Shown here: one piece after another, positions 22,870 to 34,951 of the stretch | Position numbering within the stretch: the first letter of the stretch is position 1 | Layout: every line of letters begins with the position of its first letter | Source of the DNA: Nitrospira sp. | GTDB taxonomy: Bacteria > Nitrospirota > Nitrospiria > Nitrospirales > Nitrospiraceae | Assembly (NCBI GenBank): GCA_024760545.1 | Contig: CP060501.1 | Span: forward strand, 3,178,036 to 3,242,035 | Direction: 5' to 3' | Length of the DNA: 64,000 nucleotides | The notes under the pieces: generated by a model | Told to the model about the DNA's origin: nothing | Database searches by the model: none | Seen by the model: only the letters and a program-made list of their open reading frames with translations | Position numbers and translations under genes: made by a program

Positions 22870-22993
22870 CAGGCCACCTCCCCATCATGGATCGCTTCAC
22901 GGATACTCGGTCATCCGTCCGTCGCATTGTAGCCCAACCGCGTGATCTTTTGCATGTTGCCGGTAGGGAACAGGCCACGAAAAGGGCTGTGGC

Positions 22994-23021
22994 TTGAGTC
23001 GACGCGACTACATCCTATGAT
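22994..23021 (+). promoter_or_regulatory. Candidate sigma-70 promoter for the 23111 lipoprotein
   Basis: TTGAGT at 22994-22999 and TATGAT at 23016-23021 are separated by 16 nt, close to the consensus boxes. They lie about 90 nt upstream of the lipoprotein ATG. This is a sequence match only. Confidence 0.5.
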
Positions 23022-23110
23022 TATTCCTAGGTGCGGATAACGGAATGATGACATATCGTGAGGATGGTCATTGCGACAGAAGAACTAAGCGATTGATAGG
23101 AGGGTAAATC

Positions 23111-23671
23111 ATGAAGGGTTTCCAATCATATTGGCTAATCTTAGGAGCGCTGATATTCTCTGGCTGCATTACAGATGCCACGGTGGAACTGACTAAAGCT
23201 CCATTCGATGCGACAACGGCGCTCACGAATGGCACCTCGAAAGCCGTGGGCGAATTGCTGGAGCCAACGCAAAAATTCCTCTCGAGCACGACTCCGGGAA
23301 CCGCCGCGATCAACCGCTTCACTCGGGCCAGGGAGAAAACTGAGCTCTTTGTGGGGTATACATACGAGCACTTGCGGGCAGAAACCGCCCAAGGATCCGG
23401 CGAACACATCGCTTCTCTCGCGGTCCTTGCGGGAATTCCTTCAGATCGCCACGCTCAATTTCAGGAGAGCATGCGCGATTCCTATTCCACGATGTTTAAC
23501 GAATCCCTGACTCCTCGCGAATCGAGGCTTCGCCTTGTGAACGCAGCGTGGTCGGAAGGATTTGGCAGGCAGGAATCCGATACCATTAAGCATCAAGAGA
23601 CCGGCATCAGCGATCTTGACTTAACATTTGTAAAGGCTCGGAAATCGACTCCCCTCATGACCCAGCGATGA
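23111..23671 (+). CDS. Lipoprotein, DUF3015-like
   Basis: 186 residues. The short signal ends in the lipobox GALIFSGC. The mature chain is helical and polar, with a conserved-looking core (EHIASLAVLAGIP, FQESMRDSYSTMF) that resembles DUF3015-family proteins of unknown function. The start is well supported by AGGAGGGTAAATC. A candidate promoter lies at 22994. The gene is monocistronic. Lipidation by Lgt is expected; nothing indicates an enzyme activity. Confidence 0.75.
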   Translation: MKGFQSYWLILGALIFSGCITDATVELTKAPFDATTALTNGTSKAVGELLEPTQKFLSSTTPGTAAINRFTRAREKTELFVGYTYEHLRAETAQGSGEHIASLAVLAGIPSDRHAQFQESMRDSYSTMFNESLTPRESRLRLVNAAWSEGFGRQESDTIKHQETGISDLDLTFVKARKSTPLMTQR

Positions 23672-23743
23672 GCACCGTCTGAGATTGTGTGGAACGTAAT
23701 GGATGGATGTGCCCCTGACCCGATTACAGAGGGAGACTCACGT

Positions 23744-23932
23744 TCACTTGGCTTTCGTTAAGAGAGTTTTAAGCTTCTCATAGCCCGGCGCTTCAGGATG
23801 GCAGTAATACTCGGTCAAGGATCCACTGCCGTTCCTGATGGAGATGCGGAAACTCTTGCCGTGGGCCTCGATCTTCACCGTCTCAACAATGTTGAGATAA
23901 AGGTCCTGATTCACCTGGACGATGTTATCCAC
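23744..23932 (-). CDS. Conserved-looking microprotein, 62 aa
   Basis: A GTG start with GGAGGAAGAGAG directly upstream gives a 62-residue soluble protein with two amphipathic beta-like segments (YLNIVETVKIEAHGKSF, RISIRNGSGSLTEYYCH) and a lysine-rich helix. No family is recognised. It is the last of four consecutive minus-strand microprotein genes (23744-24608). The strong ribosome site is the main evidence for translation. Confidence 0.6.
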   Translation of the reverse strand: MDNIVQVNQDLYLNIVETVKIEAHGKSFRISIRNGSGSLTEYYCHPEAPGYEKLKTLLTKAK

Positions 23933-24001
23933 CTCTCTTCCTCCAACCAGTCAGGTCCTCAGCGCGTGTTGCCATGTAGGTCCATCGAGAGTGCCGATAT
24001 C

Positions 24002-24196
24002 TCATACGCGAACCGGTTTGTAGATGGCCCACACCAGGGCGCCGATCCATCCGATCCCCGTCCAGCCCAGAACCAAATTGAGTGCGCTAATCTCAAACCG
24101 GTGATCGTGGTTTCGTACTACGGCGACGAAGCTCGGGATCAGGTAGATGATCAGAGGCCCTGGCCCGTGCAGGTTATAATTTCCAAGTTCCAGCAT
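24002..24196 (-). CDS. Superinfection-immunity-like membrane protein
   Basis: 64 residues from ATG 24196, which has GGGAG 6 nt upstream; a TTG at 24208 would place that site inside the gene. Two hydrophobic helices flank a short polar loop. The second carries the signature ISALNLVLGWTGIGWIGALV, matching the Imm_superinfect family named after the T4 Imm protein. In bacteria such proteins are common, and most have no shown anti-phage role. Expected location is the inner membrane. Confidence 0.75.
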   Translation of the reverse strand: MLELGNYNLHGPGPLIIYLIPSFVAVVRNHDHRFEISALNLVLGWTGIGWIGALVWAIYKPVRV

Positions 24197-24220
24197 GGTT
24201 TCTCCCAACAGATGAAGCGA

Positions 24221-24379
24221 TCAATCCTCTGGGTAGTCCCGCCCATCACCGAACAAGACCGACAGGCGCTTCGCCATGTGCTGCACGGCCCCTACCTCTT
24301 CATCCGTCAGCTCGCTCAGTTCCAACACTCGTCGGCTGGCAAGAATATAGTCTCGAACGCTCTGCCGGTAATCAGACAT
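24221..24379 (-). CDS. Microprotein, 52 aa
   Basis: This short frame begins MSDYRQSVRDYILASRRVLE and ends GDGRDYPED. It is acidic and helical, with a Leu/Val heptad-like spacing around ELSELTDEEVGAV. GAAGGAA lies about 9 nt upstream of the ATG. It fits neatly between two other minus-strand microprotein genes (25-nt and 40-nt gaps). No family is recognised; it could be a small regulator. Confidence 0.58.
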   Translation of the reverse strand: MSDYRQSVRDYILASRRVLELSELTDEEVGAVQHMAKRLSVLFGDGRDYPED

Positions 24380-24419
24380 AGCACGACGTTCCTTCGACAC
24401 GGCCCGAATAAAAGGCTAT

Positions 24420-24608
24420 TTAGTGTGCCTTCGGTTGGAGGATCTGTGCTTTCAGCCCCTCCGCGTAATGTTCTACCAATTCCCGTTCACCACTCGATAA
24501 CGGTGCATTGGCAGAAGGGAGCGCAGAGTAGAGGAGCCGTTCGCAGAAACAGATGTACTCCTGGAGTTCTTTGCGCAAGTTAGAGAAATGAATAGGAGAT
24601 GCCGCCAA
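24420..24608 (-). CDS. Microprotein, up to 62 aa
   Basis: A helical small protein (RKELQEYICFCERLL, SSGERELVEHYAEGLK) of unknown family. The start is unsure: TTG 24608 lies in the end of a GC-rich hairpin whose arm contains the only ribosome-site-like sequence (AAAGGCGG). A second TTG at 24578 would give 52 residues. The CFC motif and conserved-looking C-terminal helix suggest a true protein. Confidence 0.5.
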   Translation of the reverse strand: MAASPIHFSNLRKELQEYICFCERLLYSALPSANAPLSSGERELVEHYAEGLKAQILQPKAH

Positions 24609-24648
24609 GGCCCACCGCCTTTCTCACAAGGTGTCGGCGGTGGGCCTT
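24607..24648 (-). promoter_or_regulatory. 13-bp GC-rich hairpin in the leader of the 24420 microprotein
   Basis: AAGGCCCACCGCC (24607-24619) pairs perfectly with GGCGGTGGGCCTT (24636-24648) across a 16-nt loop. No T-run follows on either strand, so it is not a classic terminator. On the minus strand it would hold the candidate ribosome site and TTG of the next gene, so it could control translation or end the upstream receiver-gene transcript by another route. Confidence 0.45.
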
Positions 24649-24751
24649 CCTCGACCCGACGGCAGGTTGTGGTTGGATTGTAGGGGCAGAGCCTACGCGC
24701 TCTTGTCGGGGGTGTCAACAAGTACACCCTGAGAGAAACTGGAATTTTGTC

Positions 24752-25171
24752 TCATGTCGTGAGCGCCGCACGGATAGTCCGGTATAAGTCTTCCGGCGCA
24801 GTTTCTTTGCTCAGGTAAGCTGAAGCTCCCGCGGCATCCATTTCGTCGGCAACTGCGACGCTCGTATTGACCGACAGCCCTATAATAATGACGTCTGGAA
24901 GGTTCGCTTTGATCCGGCGCGTCGCCTCGATCCCATTCATGTTGGGCATGTGAACATCCATCAGGATGACATCGGGCTGCAACTGTTGCGCAAGCTCGCA
25001 GGCCTGCGTACCATCTTCCGCTTCACCGACGACCGTGAACTCACGATAGAAACTGAGAATGTTCCGCAATTCTTGGCGCAGAAGACGATGGTCATCAACC
25101 ACGAGGACGTGAACGGGTTGTGGTGAGACCTCCCTGCCATTGTCTGAGATTTGTTTTCGTTCCATATTCAT
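24752..25171 (-). CDS. Single-domain response regulator
   Basis: About 139 residues from ATG 25171; an in-frame start at 25198 exists. A single receiver domain is present: HVLVVDDHRLLRQ (acidic pair), VILMDVHMPNMNG (phospho-Asp at about residue 72), IIGLSVNT (Thr switch) and YLSKETAPEDL (Lys). No DNA-binding output follows, so it must act by protein contact. Its sequence, including the unusual GLSVNT, closely resembles the C-terminal receiver of the giant kinase at 25724-30088 on the other side of the tRNA gene. They may share a phosphodonor or descend from one duplication. Confidence 0.9.
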   Translation of the reverse strand: MNMERKQISDNGREVSPQPVHVLVVDDHRLLRQELRNILSFYREFTVVGEAEDGTQACELAQQLQPDVILMDVHMPNMNGIEATRRIKANLPDVIIIGLSVNTSVAVADEMDAAGASAYLSKETAPEDLYRTIRAALTT

Positions 25172-25198
25172 AGAGCTCTGACCAAAACCTGGACACAC

Positions 25199-25542
25199 TG
25201 GTCGCCTTTCCTACACTAGCGCACCCCTAGTGGGGGTTATACTGGGAAAAGTCTTAGGGATGAACAGATAGAAAGGCAACAGGTCTCATCGTCCTTGGTG
25301 GACCAAGATGTTCAATCCCCAATGGGCGGTATACACGAGATACCGTGGTCGAGATGATCACTCCGGTTCGGCCATGGGATGCGCGATCTTGGAAGGAATT
25401 TCCACGCAGGAGTATTCGATCCATCATCTGATCACACCTCAGAAATCTAACATTGACCCGTGCAAAGATATTGGCACAGGGCCATGAACCGACCAAAATT
25501 AGGGTCGCAAGTGCTTGACAATATGTTAAAGTCTCCCCTCTC
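25199..25542. other. Intergenic region between the receiver gene and tRNA-Leu
   Basis: 344 nt. Besides the inverted repeats at 25214-25237 I see no gene. A 132-codon minus frame reads antisense through the tRNA and is rejected. The promoter of the tRNA gene must lie just before 25543. Confidence 0.45.
25214..25237. promoter_or_regulatory. Nested inverted repeats upstream of the orphan receiver gene
   Basis: CACTAG and CTAGTG (25214-25219, 25227-25232) form one inverted pair. Overlapping it, ACCCC-TAGTG-GGGGT (25223-25237) forms another. They lie about 45-65 nt upstream of the receiver start on the minus strand, a plausible operator position. A CTAGG-containing palindrome also precedes the giant kinase gene (30195). 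Confidence 0.4.
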
Positions 25543-25632
25543 GCCGGAGTGGCGGAATAGGCAGACGCAAGGGACTTAAAATCCCTCGGGCTCACAAGGC
25601 CCGTACCGGTTCGATCCCGGTCTCCGGCACCA
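25543..25632 (+). tRNA. tRNA-Leu (anticodon UAA)
   Basis: An intact class II tRNA. Acceptor arms GCCGGAG (25543-25549) and CTCCGGC (25622-25628) pair perfectly, followed by discriminator A and an encoded CCA. The anticodon stem AGGGA/TCCCT encloses the loop CTTAAAA with anticodon TAA. A long variable arm (CGGGCTCACAAGGCCCG) and the T-arm (ACCGG TTCGATC CCGGT) complete it. The 3' 58 bp recurs perfectly at 30342 and imperfectly at 33503, so this gene has served as an integration site. Confidence 0.97.
25575..25632 (+). repeat. Attachment-site core in tRNA-Leu (copy 1 of 3)
   Basis: This 58-bp 3' part of tRNA-Leu, from the anticodon loop to the CCA end, is repeated without a mismatch at 30342-30399 and with four changes at 33503-33557. 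Identity stops exactly at the CCA on the right and at the anticodon loop on the left, the usual extent of a tyrosine-recombinase crossover in tRNA genes. Confidence 0.85.
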
Positions 25633-25723
25633 GATATCAGCGACTTAGCCATGATCCCTCGTACGCACTGCTTCCTCAGCTCTCGATTGGGGTTCAGCCC
25701 AGGGTGGTGTGCTCGCGTTGTGC

Positions 25724-28700
25724 TTATCCTTTTGGCTGACCGACGGATACTTGCATCGATTGCTGGATGACCCCATACAGCCGCTCCACAGCAGCCTCTT
25801 TCGTCAACAACGTCCAGGCTCCCGCAGTCGTGAAAGCATTGAAGGCTTCCCTTCCCGTATTCACCGACAAACCGACGACCTGGACCTGAGCATGGGATGT
25901 TTTGATGAGGCGTGTTGCTTCTATACCATCCATCTTTGGCATGTTGAGATCCATGACCACCACATCTGGAGAGAGCCGATCCACCAACTCGACAGCCTCT
26001 TCTCCATTGGTTGCTTCCCCAACCACCTCGATGTCGGCATATCCGGCAAGAATGGTCCTCAATCCCTGACGCATCATCGTATGATCGTCGACGAGGAGGA
26101 CGCGAATACAGGGCTTCTGAGAGGACTCCTGAATACTAGGCGGTTGCTGCTTGAAAGGTTTGTTATCGTGTCCTGGTGATGCTTTCCCGTTTGCTTCGGC
26201 GTTGAGGTCTTTCCGTGCTTCGGGATCTTGATGCAATAACGGCAGCGCCAGAGTCGCCGTGGTGCCCTGACCGGGGGTTGATTGAATGATGAATGACCCT
26301 CCCAATGCCCGCATACGTTCCTGGATACTGAATAACCCAAATTTAGAAGAAATCCCGCCACTGGGGGTGTCTGCTCCAACGGCTTCAGCAACGTTGAAGC
26401 CTGATCCCTCATCGCGCACCACAATTTCAAGAGCATCATCCAGCTGGGTCATCGTGACCGCTGCCGCTCCCGTCCCGGCATGTTTCGAAGCATTGATGAG
26501 CAGCTCCCGCACGGATTGAAACAACAGAATCGCCTGATCTTCGGGCAACTGGGGTACGGAACTGTCCGGCACTCTCACGCTGACTGTCTGGTCATGTTTC
26601 TTCATATAGTCGGCGAGCCATTTGAGCCCAGCGGCCAACCCATGGTAGCGCAACACGGGCGGGCTGAGTTCCGCCACCAGCGTACGGGTGTAGGTCAATG
26701 CCTCCGAGAAGACATCCTCCACCTTCTTGATCAATTTGAGAGCGGCTGACACATCCCCGACTGAGCGCCTCCCTTGCCCGATGGTCATCTTCCCATAGAC
26801 GAGTACTTGTTGCAGATGATCATGCAGCTCTGTGGCAAGTCGTTTGCGCTCACGCTGTTCGGCCAGATTCAATTCGCTCGTGAGGGCCCGTAGGCGCTCT
26901 TGCGATTGCTGTAATTCCACCGTCTTAAATTTCACCGCTTTTTCCAGCTCCACATTCCAGCGCTGCAGCCGTTCTTGCGCCTCGCGCAGTGCTTGTTCGG
27001 CCTGTTTGCGGTCATGAATGTCGACGCAGTACTCGGCGATCGTACCTTCTCCGAGATCTCGCCCAGCGAAGAGCATCCATCGGCGTGTGCCGTCGGCTAG
27101 GAAATACTCTTTTTCGTACGGACCGATCCGTCCAGTTTCTACAAATTGTTTCATCTGATTTTCACTGGCTTCGACCCATTCCGGCGGCGTCATCGTGCGC
27201 CATGTTATTTCACGCCGCTCAATCCGCTCTCGTTCATAACCAGTCATCCGCAGAAAGACGTCGTTGGCTTGAAGCAATGTTCCGTTGCGGTTGAAGAACA
27301 GTACTCCTACGGCGTCGGTTTCGAGGACACGTTGTAAGCGCTGTTCGCTCTCCCGCAGAGCCGCTTCCGTTTGCCGTAATCTGGTCGAATCATAGTAATA
27401 GCAAATGACGCCAGGCTGCCCATCGGGTAGGGTCAGGCGATGCAGTTCCCATTCATAGCCCTCCACTTGATTCACGTCGGCGCGGAGGTTGATGAAGTCA
27501 CGTGACGAGTAGGGCTGCCCTGTCTCAAGCGTATGACGGAAGGCGGCGATAATGTCCGCGGCAACTGTCTCTGGCCAGAGAATACGCATAGTCTCGGGAA
27601 AGTCCCGGCCAATGACTGGACGCACATTGCGAAATGCGCCCTGCTTGCTGGACTCGTTCATGTGGACGATGCGGAGTTGAGTGTCCACGATATACATGCC
27701 GAATGGCGACCCGTCGAGTAACTCTCGAAAGCGACGTTCGCTGTGTCGCAATGTCTCGGCGGCCTCTTGTCGAATTCGAACCATGTCAAGATGAACTTGT
27801 ACGCGCGCCAGCAATTCGCGGGCGCTGAAGGGCTTGATGAGATAGTCGTCGGCGCCATGCTCCAATCCTTCGACTCGGGATTCCTCACCGGCTCTAGCCG
27901 ACAGCAAAATGATGGGAATGGCCTTTGTCACAGGATCGGCGCGCAACGCACGCAATAGTCCAAACCCATCTAAGCGGGGCATCATGACATCGGAGAGGAT
28001 CAAATCTGGCGGGTTACGCCGCACCGCCTCCAATGCGGCTTGCCCATCGGCAACCGCGATGACTTCGTACCGTTCTTTCAACAAACGGCTCACATACTCC
28101 CGCATGTCGGTATTGTCGTCCGCTAGGAGGACACGAGAACGAGTGGTGAGCGATGGATCGGTTGTGACAACCCGCGATAGATCGTCACTTTCCGACGATG
28201 TTCCATTCACCAATTTCCCTGCTTCGCTGGCGCTTGGCACCAATCTCGTCGCTTCCTCTACGAACGACATGGCGCCTAACGCCGCGGTCTTCCTTTCAGT
28301 TATGCCGATGTGTTTGTGCGGTAGATGATTCTTCCCCAGGGGAATGAATACCCGGAATGTGCTTCCCTTCCCATACATGCTCTCAACGGAGATCGAACCA
28401 CCGTGAAGATGTGCCAGTTCCTGCACAAGGGAGAGTCCAATACCTGTGCCTTCATAGGTGCGGCCTTGCGAGCCGGCAATTCGATGAAACCGCTCAAAGA
28501 TCTTGCCGAGTTGGTCCTCCGGAATTCCCGTCCCGGTATCACGAATGGAGAGTTCCACATGTTTTCCACTGGGGCGCAGCGTCACCTGGATCTCGCCGTC
28601 GAGCGTATATTTGAACGCATTGGACAGCAAATTCAGGACAATCTTTTCCCACATGTCTCGATCTACGAACACGGGCTCAGGCAAGGGAGGACAATCGACA

Positions 28701-30088
28701 ATCAGAGAGAGACCACCTTTTTCCATAGTGGAGCGAAAGACGCTCGCCAGGTCGGCCGTGAACTCAGCGAGGTCCGTCTCTTCATACACCGCCTGTACCC
28801 GGCCTGCTTCGATGCGTGAAAAATCCAGTAGCTGGTTCACCAGTTTGAGCAGCCGCAGCCCATTTCGATGGACCACATCGACCTGCTGATACTGCGAGGC
28901 GTCAAGTGAGGACGTGGAGCGGCCAAACTGCGCTTTCAAATCCTCCAGCGGACCGAGCATCAGCGTGAGGGGGGTGCGCAACTCATGGCTGACATTACTG
29001 AAGAAGGCGGTCTTGGCGCGATCTAATTCCGCCAATGCCTCGGCTCGTTGGCGCTCTTCTTCATACCTCTGTGCGTTGGCGATGCTCGCCGCAATCTGGC
29101 CCACGACCAAATCAACAAACCGTTGAAAACGGTCGTCGAAAAGCCTATACGGATTCAACCCCACGATTAGAACCCCGGCTTTTCCAGTCTTACCGGATGG
29201 GATGATCGGCAAAACTACGGCCTTATGAGGAGGCTGTTTCCAAGCACCCGTCGGCAGATGGTCGAACAGCCGCGGGAGATCCGTAATGACCGAAGGCTTC
29301 TGCGTCCGGATTACCTGTGCCAAAGGCCAAACAGAGGGCGCATCGAGAGCAGGACCCGCAGTCGCTATAGGATTCGGCTCGATGCCGCTCGAGGCGGCGG
29401 GTACAAATCGGTTCCCTTCTGGTTCCGCGAGATAAATCAGCGCGAATGGAAAATCGTGAAGGTCGTTTTGCAAAGAAACCGCACTCAGCCTACATGCGTC
29501 ATCGAATGTCTGTGCATGGGCTGTCCTCGCCGCCAAATCTTTCAGCAGAGTCAATTGCCGTTCTCCGATCATGCGATCAGTATCATCTGTATTGGCGCAA
29601 AAAATGCCGCCCACGCCACCCTGATCGTCGGGGATAGGACTGTAGGAGAAAGTGTAGTATGTTTCTTCCGGGTACCCGTTTCGCTCCATGATGAGGAGTT
29701 GCGATTCCACATAGGTGCCTTCGATACCGCCCATGGCCTTCCGCAGCATCGGTCCAATCTCAGGCCAAATTTCCCTCCACACAACGGAGGCAGGTTGGCC
29801 CAGTGCAGCCGGATGTTTTCCGCAGACGATGGCTTTGTAGGGATCGTTGTAAAGCTTGATGAGTTGTTCACCCCAGCCGAGCCAAATAGGCTGACGAGAG
29901 GTGAGCATGATGCGGACGGCAGTTTTTAGGCTCTGTGGCCATCGATCAGCTGGTCCGAGCGGTGTCTTTGACCAATCTTTCGAACGGATCAGCCCGCCCA
30001 TCTCACCGCCGCCCGAGAGGAAAGCGAGATCGGATGGCAGTCCTTGAAAATTCCCCTTTGGCAGATTGGAGAATGGCGGGTGGGTCAC
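25724..30088 (-). CDS. Giant hybrid sensor kinase with two kinase cores and two receivers
   Basis: 1454 residues, no membrane segments, so cytosolic. Order (approximate residues): PAS-like 50-180; GAF-like 185-340; HisKA with SHELRTPLTLMLGP (His about 367); HATPase with NLLSNAFKYT and GTGIGLSLV; receiver 1 with LILSDVMMPRLDG (Asp about 699); PAS 780-890; PAS 905-1030; coiled coil; HisKA_3-type with RLATELHDHLQQVLV (His about 1086); HATPase with LLINASKHAG; receiver 2 with VVMDLNMPKMDG (Asp about 1381). It thus joins a classical HisKA kinase to a NarL-type kinase in one chain, with no DNA-binding output. Output presumably passes to separate regulators. It is the only gene of islet A. Confidence 0.92.
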   Translation of the reverse strand: MTHPPFSNLPKGNFQGLPSDLAFLSGGGEMGGLIRSKDWSKTPLGPADRWPQSLKTAVRIMLTSRQPIWLGWGEQLIKLYNDPYKAIVCGKHPAALGQPASVVWREIWPEIGPMLRKAMGGIEGTYVESQLLIMERNGYPEETYYTFSYSPIPDDQGGVGGIFCANTDDTDRMIGERQLTLLKDLAARTAHAQTFDDACRLSAVSLQNDLHDFPFALIYLAEPEGNRFVPAASSGIEPNPIATAGPALDAPSVWPLAQVIRTQKPSVITDLPRLFDHLPTGAWKQPPHKAVVLPIIPSGKTGKAGVLIVGLNPYRLFDDRFQRFVDLVVGQIAASIANAQRYEEERQRAEALAELDRAKTAFFSNVSHELRTPLTLMLGPLEDLKAQFGRSTSSLDASQYQQVDVVHRNGLRLLKLVNQLLDFSRIEAGRVQAVYEETDLAEFTADLASVFRSTMEKGGLSLIVDCPPLPEPVFVDRDMWEKIVLNLLSNAFKYTLDGEIQVTLRPSGKHVELSIRDTGTGIPEDQLGKIFERFHRIAGSQGRTYEGTGIGLSLVQELAHLHGGSISVESMYGKGSTFRVFIPLGKNHLPHKHIGITERKTAALGAMSFVEEATRLVPSASEAGKLVNGTSSESDDLSRVVTTDPSLTTRSRVLLADDNTDMREYVSRLLKERYEVIAVADGQAALEAVRRNPPDLILSDVMMPRLDGFGLLRALRADPVTKAIPIILLSARAGEESRVEGLEHGADDYLIKPFSARELLARVQVHLDMVRIRQEAAETLRHSERRFRELLDGSPFGMYIVDTQLRIVHMNESSKQGAFRNVRPVIGRDFPETMRILWPETVAADIIAAFRHTLETGQPYSSRDFINLRADVNQVEGYEWELHRLTLPDGQPGVICYYYDSTRLRQTEAALRESEQRLQRVLETDAVGVLFFNRNGTLLQANDVFLRMTGYERERIERREITWRTMTPPEWVEASENQMKQFVETGRIGPYEKEYFLADGTRRWMLFAGRDLGEGTIAEYCVDIHDRKQAEQALREAQERLQRWNVELEKAVKFKTVELQQSQERLRALTSELNLAEQRERKRLATELHDHLQQVLVYGKMTIGQGRRSVGDVSAALKLIKKVEDVFSEALTYTRTLVAELSPPVLRYHGLAAGLKWLADYMKKHDQTVSVRVPDSSVPQLPEDQAILLFQSVRELLINASKHAGTGAAAVTMTQLDDALEIVVRDEGSGFNVAEAVGADTPSGGISSKFGLFSIQERMRALGGSFIIQSTPGQGTTATLALPLLHQDPEARKDLNAEANGKASPGHDNKPFKQQPPSIQESSQKPCIRVLLVDDHTMMRQGLRTILAGYADIEVVGEATNGEEAVELVDRLSPDVVVMDLNMPKMDGIEATRLIKTSHAQVQVVGLSVNTGREAFNAFTTAGAWTLLTKEAAVERLYGVIQQSMQVSVGQPKG

Positions 30089-30194
30089 GTAACCTCGCTT
30101 ACCTCTGTCCCAACATGTGCTGTAGGCTATCGATCGCTAGAGGCAATTTCAGATCAACGTTGTTACCAGTAAAACATGGCGGCGCCTCTAAAAA

Positions 30195-30210
30195 CTAGGG
30201 ATATTCCTAG
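30195..30210. promoter_or_regulatory. 16-bp palindrome upstream of the giant kinase
   Basis: CTAGGGATATTCCTAG differs from its reverse complement at only two positions. It lies about 107 nt upstream of the kinase start, so it is a candidate operator for a dimeric regulator. The CTAG core recurs in the inverted repeats before the orphan receiver gene (25214). Confidence 0.42.
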
Positions 30211-30341
30211 CGGGCTATCGCTGGTTCCGACACACCTAATGCGCATCAACGTGAAAGCATCTTGCACCTGCCGATAGCGGCACAGTTACGAAACATTAGT
30301 CATGGGCAACACTGTCCGGTGGTTTCGGGGTGTGGTGGGTT

Positions 30342-30399
30342 CTTAAAATCCCTCGGGCTCACAAGGCCCGTACCGGTTCGATCCCGGTCTCCGGCACCA
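30342..30399 (+). repeat. Truncated tRNA-Leu 3' end (attachment copy 2)
   Basis: All 58 bp match the 3' end of the intact tRNA-Leu (25575-25632), including the encoded CCA. The 5' half of the tRNA is absent, so this is not a functional gene. It marks the distal end of islet A and the proximal end of islet B. Confidence 0.85.
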
Positions 30400-30694
30400 T
30401 GTTTTAAGCTGCTAGGGTAACCCTTCCTCGATCGATATTCCGGGTCTTCTCTGAACACTGTGGTTGAACTGCGGCGTACTCCGATCTTATCTCATCCGCG
30501 CACTGTAGCCTCACCGGTTTCTTGAGCCCTCGAAGAGATCCGTTTTCTTCACGGCCGCCTAGCACGAGATCCTCCACTTAGGTAGGAACCAATTAAGAAG
30601 ATCACAGAATAGCCCCCGCCGAGGTTTCTGTCGCAGAATGCCAGGACCTGCAATTTCTATTTCTGCTCTCAAAGGAATGACGAGGTGACACACG

Positions 30695-31510
30695 ATGCCA
30701 CATGTATTCGATCCCGGCTATGGGCAGGAACCCTTCAAGAGTTTGTGCGAGGTCTACCCGGATGCGACCGTGTATCCGGCGACCGACTTCCGTTTTGAGT
30801 GGGGGCCCATCTTTCACCGAGGGCGCCTCGACGGCTCCGCCCGGATTCTCGTGATTGGACAGGATCCCGCGCAGCACGAAACGATCATCCGTCGGATTTT
30901 GGTGGGCGAAGCGGGACGACGCGTCCAGGGTTTTCTGGCCAAGCTCGGCATCACCAGGAGCTACGTCTTCATCAACACCTATCTGTACAGCGTCTACGGC
31001 AGCGTCAAGGCCAAGACTCGCAAGAGCCCGGCCCTGATCGAGTACCGCAATCGGTGGTTCAACGCTTTGCTGGTCGGCAGTCAAGTCAAAGCCGTGCTTG
31101 CCCTCGGGCAGGCCGCGGACGAAGCCTGGCAATTCTGGAAAACAACGCCGGCGGCGCAGTCGGTGCACGTCACCTATGCGGCGGTGTCGCATCCGACACA
31201 ACCGGAAAGCTCGTCGAAGGGGAACAAGACCAAGCTCGTCGCCGCCACCAAGAAGATGCTGCAGAATTGGAATGCGGCCCTCCAGATCCTCTCGCCGAGC
31301 ATGCAAGACGTGGATGTCTCCACTCCGCTGGTGTTGTACGGCGAGAGCTGGGCTGACGGCGACCGTGTGGGCATTCCAGAATTTGACCTGCCGGCCGGCT
31401 TGCCCGCGTGGATGCACGAGCAAGACGGCTGGGCCAAGCGCTCCGGTGCCGATGACCTCGCCAAGCGCCGCAATATTACGATCACCGTACCCAAGGGGAT
31501 CGTGGTATGA
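30695..31510 (+). CDS. Uracil-DNA-glycosylase-superfamily protein
   Basis: 271 residues. The UDG fold is indicated by motif A ILVIGQDPAQHE (GQDP as in family 1, but followed by AQ rather than YH), the core VFINTYLYSVYG, KAVLALGQAADEAW, and a histidine-containing motif B VSHPTQPES. The residue changes argue against a classical Ung and for a divergent family that may act on another damaged or modified base. About 75 C-terminal residues after motif B are extra. GAGGTG precedes the ATG. It overlaps the amidohydrolase gene by 4 nt (ATGA), so both are translated together. Glycosylase activity is inferred, not proven. Confidence 0.82.
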   Translation: MPHVFDPGYGQEPFKSLCEVYPDATVYPATDFRFEWGPIFHRGRLDGSARILVIGQDPAQHETIIRRILVGEAGRRVQGFLAKLGITRSYVFINTYLYSVYGSVKAKTRKSPALIEYRNRWFNALLVGSQVKAVLALGQAADEAWQFWKTTPAAQSVHVTYAAVSHPTQPESSSKGNKTKLVAATKKMLQNWNAALQILSPSMQDVDVSTPLVLYGESWADGDRVGIPEFDLPAGLPAWMHEQDGWAKRSGADDLAKRRNITITVPKGIVV

Positions 31511-33282
31511 GCGAGGTCCCACGCCGTTGGTATCCGCTCGCGGGGACAGCTGACACAGCCCGAGGAGTCACTCCTCGAACAGCGAGAGCGACGAAGCGGC
31601 GTGGGCTGATCGATCCCCTCACAAGTCCCAAGGTCGCGCTGGCGGGGCGGGTCGTCACCATGGACGACGCGTGGACTGTGAAGCCCAACGCTGTCCTGTT
31701 CATCGACAAAGGGACCATTGTTGCGGTGCAAGACCGTGCCCAGCGGCCACCAGCCGACTTCGACGATGTCGCCGTGGTGGAAACCGACGGCACACTCTTC
31801 CCGGGCCTGATCGAACTCCACAACCATCTCAGCTATAACGCGCTGCCGCTCTGGAGCCCGGTCCCGAAGCGATTCCAACACCGTGGCCAGTGGCCCACCC
31901 ACCCCGATTACCGCAAGCTCATCAGCGGTCCCATGACCGTCGTGGGCAAATACCGGGACGCCCATGGGAACCCTTCGCTGTTGGCTCCGCTTATCCGCTA
32001 TGTCGAGTGTAAATGTCTCCTCGGAGGCGTCACGACGAGTCAGGGGATCATGCTGAGCAGTAATGCCGGCGTGCAGCGGTATTATCGGGGAATTGTGCGC
32101 AACGTGGAGAACACCGACGACCCGGTTCTCTCCGAGGCCAAAGCCCGGATCCCAGACCTCGATGCCAAGAGCGCCCGATCATTTCTGGCGCGGCTGAACA
32201 AGGAGGATAGTTGTTTCCTTCTCCACCTGAGCGAAGGGATCACCGCCTCCGGACAGACCAGTTCGATCGCGCGCAACCATTTTCTCGCCCTTCAGGTGGC
32301 GCCAAACGAGTGGGCGCTCAATGACCGGTTCGCGGCGATTCACGCAGCTGGTCTGCTGCCCGAAGACTTCGCGGTGTTGGGAGAACATGGGGGGTCGATG
32401 GTCTGGTCGCCGCTCAGCAACTTGCTGCTCTATGGAGCCACGGCGCGGGTGGAAGACGCGAAGCGAACGGGCGTGCGCATCGGCCTCGGCAGTGACTGGT
32501 CCCCGTCGGGAAGCAAGAACTTACTCGGCGAGCTCAAAGTCGCCTGGCTCTATTCTCAACATCTCTTGGGGGGACTGTTCAGTGCGCGCGAGCTGATCGC
32601 GATGGCGACACGGGAGGCGGCCAAAATTCTCAAATGGCATGAAGCGCTCGGGTCGCTCGAAGCAGGCAAACGCGCCGATGTGGTCGTCATCGCCGGCCAG
32701 GAGGGGGATCCCTATGACGCATTGATCCAGGCGAAGGAAACCTCGATGAGTTTGGTCATGATCAACGGGGTCGCGCGCTATGGACTATCTGAGTTGATGA
32801 GTGCGCTCGGTTCGAAGGGGGAGACGGTGCGGGTGGGCGGAAAAGCGAGACGCCTGTTTCTACAACAAGAGACCGGCGATCCTGACGTTGCCCAAATCTC
32901 CCTCCGTGCGGCGAGGACCGCGTTGCAAAAGGCCTTCCGTGACCTCCCAAAGCTCGCCAGAGCGCTGGAGACGCCGCGATCACGAGCTACCAGGCGGGCC
33001 GTATTGGATAGGCAAGAGCCGGTGGTATGGACCTTGGCCCTCGATGAGATTCAAGCGACAGGAACCGATCTGCGGCCGCGGTTGCCGTTGAATGGGCCTC
33101 GGGACTTCACGGGCCCTGACCGGATCGCCCAGCGAGCCGCCGCCATGCCGCTCTCGCAGCTGCTCCAGCCGATCACGCTCGATCCGCTCACTGTGGCGGA
33201 CGATTCCAATTTTCTGGCGGAGATTTCGAATCAGCCCAACCTGCCTGAGCCGATCCGCACGGGCCTCGCGGAACTCTACTGA
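31507..33282 (+). CDS. Amidohydrolase-superfamily protein
   Basis: 591 residues. After a 40-residue basic N-terminus comes the amidohydrolase barrel: metal-binding ELHNHLSYNA (HxH) after TLFPGLI, then LLHLSEG, VLGEHGGSMVWSPLSN and GLGSDWSPSGSKN (catalytic Asp). The order fits the SAH/guanine/chlorohydrolase-like deaminase branch. The last 150 residues have no clear domain. The 4-nt overlap with the upstream glycosylase-like gene suggests a joint pathway, for example handling a released base or nucleoside, but the substrate cannot be told from sequence. The start codon is fixed by the ATGA overlap, though a later start near 31580 is possible. Confidence 0.86.
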   Translation: MSEVPRRWYPLAGTADTARGVTPRTARATKRRGLIDPLTSPKVALAGRVVTMDDAWTVKPNAVLFIDKGTIVAVQDRAQRPPADFDDVAVVETDGTLFPGLIELHNHLSYNALPLWSPVPKRFQHRGQWPTHPDYRKLISGPMTVVGKYRDAHGNPSLLAPLIRYVECKCLLGGVTTSQGIMLSSNAGVQRYYRGIVRNVENTDDPVLSEAKARIPDLDAKSARSFLARLNKEDSCFLLHLSEGITASGQTSSIARNHFLALQVAPNEWALNDRFAAIHAAGLLPEDFAVLGEHGGSMVWSPLSNLLLYGATARVEDAKRTGVRIGLGSDWSPSGSKNLLGELKVAWLYSQHLLGGLFSARELIAMATREAAKILKWHEALGSLEAGKRADVVVIAGQEGDPYDALIQAKETSMSLVMINGVARYGLSELMSALGSKGETVRVGGKARRLFLQQETGDPDVAQISLRAARTALQKAFRDLPKLARALETPRSRATRRAVLDRQEPVVWTLALDEIQATGTDLRPRLPLNGPRDFTGPDRIAQRAAAMPLSQLLQPITLDPLTVADDSNFLAEISNQPNLPEPIRTGLAELY

Positions 33283-33502
33283 CACAGTTCGCAATGGGTC
33301 TTCCCTCCGCCGCGATGAGTACACACATGCCGGCTGCAAAATTGTGACAGAACTGCGAAGAACCCTATTCAATCGGAAGTGAGCAAAGCGGTTCTTGGCA
33401 CCAGTCGAGTCTATCCTCCAAGCCATTTTTTTAGTCGGTTCAGCCTGAATTTCTTCGGATAAATTTTGACGAGTCTCTATAGACTCTGACGGGACTTCAG
33501 TT

Positions 33503-33557
33503 TTAAAATCCTCGGGCTCCAAGGCCCGCACCGGTTCGATCCCGGTCTCCGGCGCCA
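33503..33557 (+). repeat. Decayed tRNA-Leu 3' end (attachment copy 3)
   Basis: 55 bp aligned to the 57-bp tRNA segment starting TTAAAATCC, with two single-base deletions and two substitutions (T to C in the T-stem side, A to G before the terminal CCA). The base changes would disturb the anticodon and variable arms, so it is a relic and not a tRNA gene. Confidence 0.8.
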
Positions 33558-33605
33558 GTCATGCGAGAATCGTGCGTCAGTCGACCACAAATTTCTAGAG
33601 GAATC

Positions 33606-33839
33606 ATGAATACAAAAGGAATCGTGATGTTCATTGCCGGTGTCATGCTCTTTCTTTGTGTCATAGGGATTGGGGCCTGGGTGATGACTGCCCCACTGGA
33701 AGCCGGAGAGGTGGAAACGAAGCGTTGTAATGAATACGTGGGTGAGTTGGATCAGGTGAATAAGTACAAGTGGTTTTGGACACCCTATCATCAGCGCATG
33801 GCGTTCAATACCTGCATCACCAAGAAAATAGGGCAGTAG
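33606..33839 (+). CDS. Small single-pass membrane protein
   Basis: 77 residues from ATG 33606 (AGAGGAATC upstream; the frame extends to 33561 without a ribosome site). One N-terminal transmembrane helix (IVMFIAGVMLFLCVIGIGAW) is followed by a polar periplasmic-side domain with two cysteines (TKRCNEYVG, FNTCITK), which could form a disulfide. The family is unknown. It lies just beyond the outermost tRNA repeat and so may be the first gene of the ancestral chromosome. Confidence 0.65.
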   Translation: MNTKGIVMFIAGVMLFLCVIGIGAWVMTAPLEAGEVETKRCNEYVGELDQVNKYKWFWTPYHQRMAFNTCITKKIGQ

Positions 33840-33897: not shown

Positions 33898-34344
33898 ATG
33901 CGCATGGTGTGGTGGTGGATGCCTTGTGCTCGTGCAGGTCTCCAGGGAGCGTCGAGACTTCTCCTTGGGTTTACGCTCCTACAGCTATGGAACGCTGCCC
34001 CACTGCGCGCGGAATGGTCTCTTGTCGATAGGAACGACAAGGCCAAAATCTATGTTGATTCGGAAAGCATCATCCGGAATGGTGAGTTGGTGAGCGTATG
34101 GGTCTTGGATGATCTGAAGATTGCTCAAATGCGTGGGTTCAGGAAATACTTGTCCTCACGCGCCCAGGAAGAACACGACTGTATCAAAGAACGCTTTCGG
34201 CTGCTGGCCTTAGAATATTTCTCGGGAAATATGGCATCCGGAGAAGCGCTCTATAAAACATCAGGCGAATCGGACTGGACGCCCATTCCACGCGGAACCT
34301 TGGCGCAATCGGTCTGGAGGCATGTGTGTAAGAGGTTGAGGTAA
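33898..34344 (+). CDS. Exported surface-adhesin-E-like protein
   Basis: 148 residues. An N-terminal hydrophobic stretch (LLLGFTLLQLWNAAPLRA) acts as the signal. The mature part has the surface-adhesin protein E pattern: AEWSLVDRNDKAKIYVDSES, VSVWVLDDLK, KYLSSRAQEEHDC, RLLALEYFS and IPRGTLAQSVWRHVC. The two conserved cysteines fit the family's disulfide. Despite the name, most environmental members have no shown adhesin role. The gene is tail to tail with the 34345 gene, with no gap. Confidence 0.77.
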   Translation: MRMVWWWMPCARAGLQGASRLLLGFTLLQLWNAAPLRAEWSLVDRNDKAKIYVDSESIIRNGELVSVWVLDDLKIAQMRGFRKYLSSRAQEEHDCIKERFRLLALEYFSGNMASGEALYKTSGESDWTPIPRGTLAQSVWRHVCKRLR

Positions 34345-34656
34345 TCAGCCTCTTTCCTGCCCACACTTCCAACACTCCGCAAATTGACTCCCGTGACGCT
34401 CGCCGCATCCTATGCATACCCAAGAGTCTTGGTCCGATCCTGACAACACCAAACCTTCGTCCAGTAATTGCCGCGCCCGATCATAATCCTCATCCTGAAT
34501 AACCCACACTTCCTGGAAAACTTCGGTAAATGGAATCTCTCCGGCCAAGCCCGAGGAACGCTGGTTCTTGATCATGCACTGGATACCGGCCTGCTCCAGA
34601 CGCTCCTTGCGCATCTCAACCTCGAACAAGTTCTGCGACACGAAGACCTTTTTCAT
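34345..34656 (-). CDS. DUF2007-like protein with zinc-ribbon tail
   Basis: 103 residues from ATG 34656; a TTG nine bases earlier is in frame. The N-terminal half, MKKVFVSQNLFEVEMRKERL with IQCMIKN and EVWVIQDEDYDRA, matches the DUF2007 signal-transducing-like ferredoxin-type fold. The C-terminus carries WVCIGCGERH and CWKCGQERG, a four-cysteine zinc ribbon of RanBP2/ribbon type. Such proteins are cytosolic and of unknown function. The gene is followed closely by the convergent adhesin-E-like gene. Confidence 0.77.
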   Translation of the reverse strand: MKKVFVSQNLFEVEMRKERLEQAGIQCMIKNQRSSGLAGEIPFTEVFQEVWVIQDEDYDRARQLLDEGLVLSGSDQDSWVCIGCGERHGSQFAECWKCGQERG

Positions 34657-34693
34657 CGAGTCCAAATCTTCGCGAGGTTTCTTATGCGCCCTA

Positions 34694-34951
34694 TCACTTC
34701 TTAAAAACCAATCGTGGTTCGGTCATACTGCCCATCGATACTGCCACCAGCTCCCATCCGTCTGCCCCAAACTCGTTCAGCTTGGTTTGCATATTCTGCG
34801 TATCCGGGAGTACTTCGATGATTTGGTATTGATAGCGTTTGTGCTCCTGAGCCTTTGCTGTGAGCGGTTGGCCGAAGAGGAGCACAAGCCCCAGGGCCCC
34901 AAGGCTGATGAGTGCGATCGTCCACGCAACGGAAATGCGTATGGTCAGCAT
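34694..34951 (-). CDS. Small membrane-anchored DUF4177-like protein
   Basis: 85 residues: one N-terminal membrane helix or signal (SVAWTIALISLGALGLVLLF), then a small alpha/beta domain with YQYQIIEVLPDTQN, KLNEFGADGWELVAVS and PRLVFKK, the pattern of DUF4177 proteins. GCGAGGTGACAT precedes the ATG. It is 38 nt upstream of the DUF2007-like gene and is probably co-transcribed with it. Confidence 0.72.
   Translation of the reverse strand: MLTIRISVAWTIALISLGALGLVLLFGQPLTAKAQEHKRYQYQIIEVLPDTQNMQTKLNEFGADGWELVAVSMGSMTEPRLVFKK

Follow-up and report, generated by a model that had tools for sequence, protein, structure and literature searches.

Two tRNA-bordered islets and an upstream insert at a tRNA-Leu(UAA) gene of Nitrospira sp.

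CIMEs (cis-mobilizable elements) are elements that have kept their att sites and lost their genes for integration and transfer. The available text of PMC5704250 describes them in tandem with ICEs and IMEs. In Dehalococcoides, 15 islands at ssrA are without an integration module and have been named possible CIMEs; these islands lie in tandem downstream of one RNA gene and are delimited by repeats of its 3′ end (PMC3146451, available part of the text). The Islander collection of tDNA islands, in which a tRNA gene and a displaced fragment of it mark an island, includes 3′ fragments (3760) and, more rarely, 5′ fragments (159), and tandem islands are known there as well (PMC4383910, available part). 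Tycheposons are cargo elements that are bordered by a tRNA and carry a tyrosine recombinase (PMC10872708, available part).

The locus described here is a tRNA-Leu(UAA) gene of Nitrospira sp. followed by two islets, each ending in a displaced fragment of the tRNA. Like the CIMEs of PMC5704250, as far as its available text goes, the islets stand in tandem at one site and may have arisen by decay and later integration; unlike them, they are known from sequence alone, and their relatives resemble phage-satellite-type rather than conjugative elements. The tandem position downstream of one RNA gene and the 3′-end repeats are as in Dehalococcoides, where, by the same partial account, the target is a tmRNA and the enzyme a serine recombinase, whereas here the target is a tRNA-Leu, the enzyme a tyrosine integrase and the array much smaller. 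The likeness to the Islander islands lies in the tRNA with its displaced fragment, that to the Tycheposons in cargo bordered by a tRNA; judged by the available description of the latter, the islets are not Tycheposons, as they have no intact recombinase. A literature search for such elements in Nitrospira yielded none named among the matches listed.

The window, i.e. the whole stretch of DNA that was analysed, comprises 64,000 bp (contig 1, positions 3178036-3242035). The genome has 4.81 Mb and consists of two contigs. Table 1 gives an overview of the features discussed. Genomes of relatives are designated by G numbers and single loci by L numbers.

Table 1 Features at the tRNA-Leu(UAA) locus (window coordinates)
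Feature	Position	Strand	Basis or remark
Upstream insert, 2.5 kb	22993..25521		between gene D and -10 region of the tRNA promoter
DUF3015 protein in upstream insert	23111-23671	+	
Single-domain response regulator in upstream insert	24752-25198	-	
Right end of insert with new -35 (TTGACA)	25478..25521	+	common to the G061 upstream insert
tRNA-Leu(UAA), target gene	25543..25632	+	ARAGORN, BLASTN
Islet 1, 4709 bp	25633..30341		empty sites in 51/72; ends like the G004 element
Probable integrase C-terminus remnant	25645..25701	-	WAEPQSRAEEAVRTRDHG then stop
Hybrid histidine kinase, 1454 aa, sole cargo gene of islet 1	25724..30088	-	domain search
Far end of islet 1 beside the repeat	30313..30341	+	common to the G004 element: 26/29 bp, E 1e-6
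First displaced 3′ tRNA copy	30342..30399	+	58/58 identical to tRNA positions 33-90, E 1.9e-23
Islet 2, 3103 bp	30400..33502		empty sites in 51/72 relatives
BdiUNG-type uracil-DNA glycosylase	30695..31510	+	profile and Foldseek
Amidohydrolase, nearest guanine/8-oxoguanine deaminases and TRZ/ATZ hydrolases	31507..33282	+	NCBIfam
Second, decayed 3′ tRNA copy	33503..33558	+	93% identity, E 4.2e-16; two deletions and substitutions
Gene J, marker of empty sites	33603..33839	+	first post-islet gene common to relatives

The tRNA gene, its displaced copies and the site in relatives

ARAGORN found a single tRNA in the window, tRNA-Leu(TAA). With this gene as query against the own genome (BLASTN, E ≤ 0.001) three matches were obtained, the gene and its two displaced copies; no further full-length match exists in the genome, thus the gene appears to be single-copy. 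The original prediction had described an intact tRNA-Leu with a perfect 58-bp and a decayed copy of its 3′ end, and this was borne out, including the greater decay of the far repeat that serial accretion predicts. The deletions and substitutions of the far copy are unmatched by any 3′ half among 75 tRNA-Leu(UAA) calls, a set in which a few loci were entered twice and one call is the copy in G080. A second strain, Nitrospira sp. BO4 (L034 = G082), has the same arrangement and is 99.5% identical across 20.8 kb. Of the 94 alignment columns in which the two strains differ over this length, 52 fall within 0.8 kb just beyond the islets (33939-34715); gene K is 92.8% identical to its BO4 counterpart and eight other genes compared at least 99.47%. 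This stretch is a recombination tract.

The tRNA was matched in 73 of 79 same-genus genomes, the own one included, and the other 72 loci, two of them without a complete tRNA, were compared by the distance from the tRNA to gene J. The site is empty in 51 of the 72, with J beginning 40-87 bp past the tRNA; the spacing between the second copy and J in the window is 45 bp, and many of these loci carry the gene series of the window onward (K, L, M, polA). According to this, positions 25633-33557 are inserted DNA. Five loci are occupied, namely those of G082, which belongs to the same species, G017, G004, G080 and G093. The tRNA and J are 7971 bp apart in G082, where the islets are present, and 10,512 bp apart in G017, where 10.4 kb separates the tRNA from a 62-bp tRNA copy that is followed by J. 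The tRNA and J of G004, G080 and G093 are on separate contigs, with J behind a tRNA fragment. G093 (L140, reverse strand) has a 2.3-kb islet at this tRNA with only a 15-bp remnant as far repeat and no integrase match on its contigs. Sixteen loci were uninformative (J not found, contig end or divergent tRNA). The comparison across relatives, which had been expected to uncover empty sites or other cargo if the DNA was inserted, uncovered both: other cargo sits between repeats of the same kind.

Units bounded by tRNA fragments at one tRNA, with 51 empty sites among 72, correspond to tandem accretion. Two successive insertions, as originally proposed, fit the decay gradient of the repeats; as two events they are not directly evident, since none of the 72 same-genus loci has islet 1 alone or islet 2 alone. 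That no locus holds only one islet and that the sister strain holds both would also be expected if islets 1 and 2 had entered as a single element with an internal tRNA copy. We regard such a composite insertion as unlikely, because islet 1 is bounded by ends of its own and the decay of the two repeats is unequal.

Islet 1 and the integrase-carrying elements of relatives

Tyrosine integrase genes directed at the tRNA and ending at most 60 bp from it are present in G017 and G004 (67% identity between the two integrases). G080 has a truncated integrase, a 194-codon open frame directed into the tRNA copy and 94% identical to the G017 integrase over 146 residues, and another, different integrase after the tRNA in the opposite orientation. 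Since the G080 piece is truncated, just two intact integrases of the G004/G017 family were seen at the site; the truncation also demonstrates that integrase genes at tRNA-Leu(UAA) do get truncated, which supports decay in place. Relatives of these integrases occur at other tRNAs, for example in G063 (62% identity) at tRNA-Ser(TGA) and in G081 (49%) at tRNA-Leu(CAA).

Phage satellites carry an integrase, a regulator, a replication gene and a terminase small subunit. The element of G017, which encodes HTH_17 (weak), DUF3631, a CHC2 zinc finger (weak) and a terminase-small-subunit-like protein, matches all four items, three of them weakly or below the Pfam cut-off. For the G004 element, as far as it is visible, integrase, regulator and replication gene are matched, with HTH_17 and a DUF3987 protein ('DNA helicase' in PHROGs), and G080 gave a match to internal-virion-protein. 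The three elements are satellite-like or phage-derived. None of the four satellite genes was found in the islets of the window, which are thus not assigned to the phage satellites. Possible defence cargo is encoded in the elements of G080: a TIR-domain protein and a further protein that matches TIR weakly (L135 7110-7919, 15857-16930).

Each islet of the window was described as carrying one or two genes and no integrase. The gene numbers hold, with the kinase in islet 1 and the glycosylase and amidohydrolase in islet 2. A profile search of the own genome yielded 25 matches to PF00589, all outside the window, and thus neither islet has an intact recombinase, but islet 1 retains a short, probable integrase remnant. 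Beside the tRNA, the reverse strand of islet 1 reads WAEPQSRAEEAVRTRDHG followed by a stop, and the G004 integrase ends with WAQNREVDGVRETRKHG and a stop, both stops lying at nearly equal distance from the tRNA. The stub of about 18 codons had a local score of 40 compared to 20.7 ± 4.1 for random window DNA (0/3000 controls as high), and the kinase gene ends about 20 bp beyond it. At the DNA level, the near end aligned with the G004 element better than all 5000 controls over 60, 75 and 90 bp each, and over 40 bp with a control fraction of 0.0004. Compared with the G004 ends, those of islet 1 reached z values of 7.0 (far end) and 4.2 (near end), no piece as good being among 2000 random window pieces; this comparison and that of the stub refer to one reference element whose two ends are on different contigs and are assumed to belong together. 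A 22-letter motif of the far end occurs with at most two mismatches in 4 of 79 genomes, namely the own one, G082, G004 and G086, the last with a single two-mismatch occurrence and no tRNA in the 3 kb read.

Islet 1 thus has, as attL and attR flanks of a CIME, the 58-bp repeats and, inside them, ends that resemble those of the integrase-bearing G004 element, and of integration or transfer genes only the integrase-like stub; its single gene encodes a histidine kinase. In view of the stub and the G004-like ends, the most plausible interpretation is that islet 1 is an island that once had an integrase and lost it, a CIME whose att sites may still function, rather than cargo that was trans-mobilised from the outset. 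Most simply, the rest of the integrase would have been removed by a deletion.

The original prediction had suggested that the islets, as recombinase-free cargo units, may be mobilised in trans by elements elsewhere; they would then move as they are, by means of integrases of other elements recognising the same tRNA half. Both ends of islet 1 do resemble an att pair, and the 2.3-kb islet of G093 at the same tRNA has no integrase match on its contigs either. Nevertheless, mobilisation in trans is quite improbable as the origin of the islets: islet 1 contains the stub, the 72 loci compared show islet 1 at this site in the sister strain alone, and the nearest of the 25 resident integrases are 37-40% identical to that of G004, while an integrase with 62% identity already uses tRNA-Ser(TGA). 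One of these nearest resident integrases is located beside tRNA-Ser(TGA); for another, the 20 kb examined contained no tRNA. With no suitable integrase found in the genome, present-day movement is unlikely, although islet 1 could be mobilised by an incoming one.

The kinase has the domain order GAF, HisKA, HATPase, REC, PAS, HisKA_3, HATPase, REC. Between BO4 and this strain its gene differs by 4 synonymous and 4 nonsynonymous changes, too small a number for a judgement on selection, and the G+C content of islet 1 (0.55, window 0.56) does not mark it. A second hybrid kinase with much the same domain order is encoded in the own chromosome (L250 4956-8810; C1 ~61955-65810), its identity to the kinase of islet 1 being 84% for the first kinase core, 74% for the last receiver and 45% for the N-terminus. 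Such a close paralogue, together with the recombination tract just downstream of the islets, could indicate that host duplication or recombination between tRNA copies placed host genes at this tRNA without an integrase. This is very improbable, since the anticodon loop is where the repeats start, just like those of the relatives with integrases, and islet 1 shares the ends of an element.

Two further ideas on the cargo were examined and set aside. The kinase gene and that of the response regulator upstream of the tRNA might once have formed a single operon that the tRNA divided. In seven loci with relatives of the kinase, one from the own genome and six from other genomes, the regulator gave matches with 31-53% identity, mostly to receiver domains that also match the receivers of the kinase itself; with no clear separate partner gene the idea was dropped, though not disproved. 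A defence system as cargo was rejected, since PADLOC matches were confined to the receiver/ATPase regions of kinase and regulator, with none in the glycosylase, the amidohydrolase or the protein encoded at 23111-23671.

Islet 2 and its glycosylase/amidohydrolase pair

The glycosylase matched BdiUNG of Bradyrhizobium (5gn2) with a profile E value of 2.9e-133 and by Foldseek with an E value of 1.2e-32 and 55% identity (model pLDDT 84.7). The NCBIfam matches of the amidohydrolase are far below the curated cut-offs. BdiUNG-like enzymes may act also on hypoxanthine and xanthine (PMC8307549, available part), and the glycosylase and its deaminase-like partner might constitute a pair for base damage or base salvage. 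An amidohydrolase adjoins the glycosylase in 60 of 65 loci, which by their record titles come from several phyla; at least two loci were counted twice (L036/L217, L051/L216), and L089, among the five exceptions, matched only in part. No title on such a pair was among the matches listed in a literature search. Neither gene differs between this strain and BO4, again too little to judge selection.

The inner ends of islet 2 are not significantly like those of the elements compared (best p = 0.0115 among many comparisons), and the search for an integrase stub gave a score of 21, equal to the null. Its G+C content of 0.60 is at the upper edge of the range for 3.1-kb pieces of the window. In nine loci with the gene pair in other genomes of the Nitrospira lineage no tRNA-Leu(UAA) is found beside the pair; one tRNA-His and one undetermined tRNA call were obtained there, each more than 6 kb away. 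The assignment of islet 2 as an insertion is based on its tRNA repeat and on the empty sites, and islet 2 is either older or derived from a different type of element. Islet 1 is well evidenced, islet 2 less so, and both CIME formation and tandem accretion are ordinary in kind.

The upstream insert and the tRNA promoter

Besides the islets, we observed an insert on the other side of the tRNA, outside the region covered by the original prediction. The equivalents of window positions 22992 and 25522 are just 12 bp apart in G013, G020 and G039, and the gap from gene D to the tRNA is 2673 bp in G082 compared to 151-501 bp in 29 other genomes with D. At the place of the -35 box, TTGAC[A/T] is present in 3 of 69 loci only, those of the window, G082 and G061. 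The right end of the insert aligned with that of G061 with a score of 20 (controls -4.3 ± 3.0; 0/3000 as high). G061 has an empty 3′ site and a 4.4-kb upstream insert, the left border of which is a copy of tRNA positions 1-39; PF00589 gave no match on its contig, which begins just before this left tRNA copy. At the left end of the window insert a decayed 5′ tRNA copy was not found (p = 0.21), so that it is called a 5′-side insert only by the right end common to G061.

With a new -35 from the upstream insert, which gives a TTGACA/TATGTT promoter, and with the islets on the 3′ side, this tRNA gene, apparently a single copy, has been changed on both of its sides. We tentatively suggest, at somewhat less than an even chance, that a 5′-side element replaced part of the promoter and, as the repeat in G061 suggests, the 5′ half of the gene, and that 3′-side elements replaced the 3′ half, with the anticodon loop as the meeting point of the two. 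In the own genome a tRNA-Ser(TGA) lies between two convergent integrase genes (C1:4298330-4300207, L213), and in G039 the same holds for a tRNA-Thr(TGT) (L211). On account of these two tRNAs, two-sided use may be a habit of the genus.

For the locus as a whole we consider the following history probable. The tRNA-Leu(UAA) gene would be an integration hotspot in the genus, used by a single family of tyrosine integrases; the start of the repeats at the anticodon loop suggests that recombination takes place there or close by. Each arriving element would bring a new 3′ half and displace the old half downstream. Islet 2, whose repeat is decayed, would have arrived first and islet 1 second, the latter derived from an element whose integrase was of the G004 type. 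By a deletion it would then have lost its integrase gene except for the stub, together with any other mobility genes, and have kept the two ends and the histidine kinase gene, so that islet 1 would now be a CIME-type remnant in a tandem array, probably immobile unless an integrase of the G004 family arrives. On the 5′ side, a third insert has exchanged the -35 box of the promoter. Islet 2 and the upstream insert would likewise have entered in a site-specific way.

The evidence for islet 1, from empty sites and integrase-carrying relatives to shared ends and the stub, suggests how integrase-less islets arise. Islander, according to the available part of PMC4383910, rejects islands without an integrase and therefore would miss an array like that at tRNA-Leu(UAA); minimal islets of this kind at tRNA genes escape such integrase-demanding island finders. 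The change of one tRNA gene from two sides, its promoter included, bears on how mobile elements reshape essential genes.
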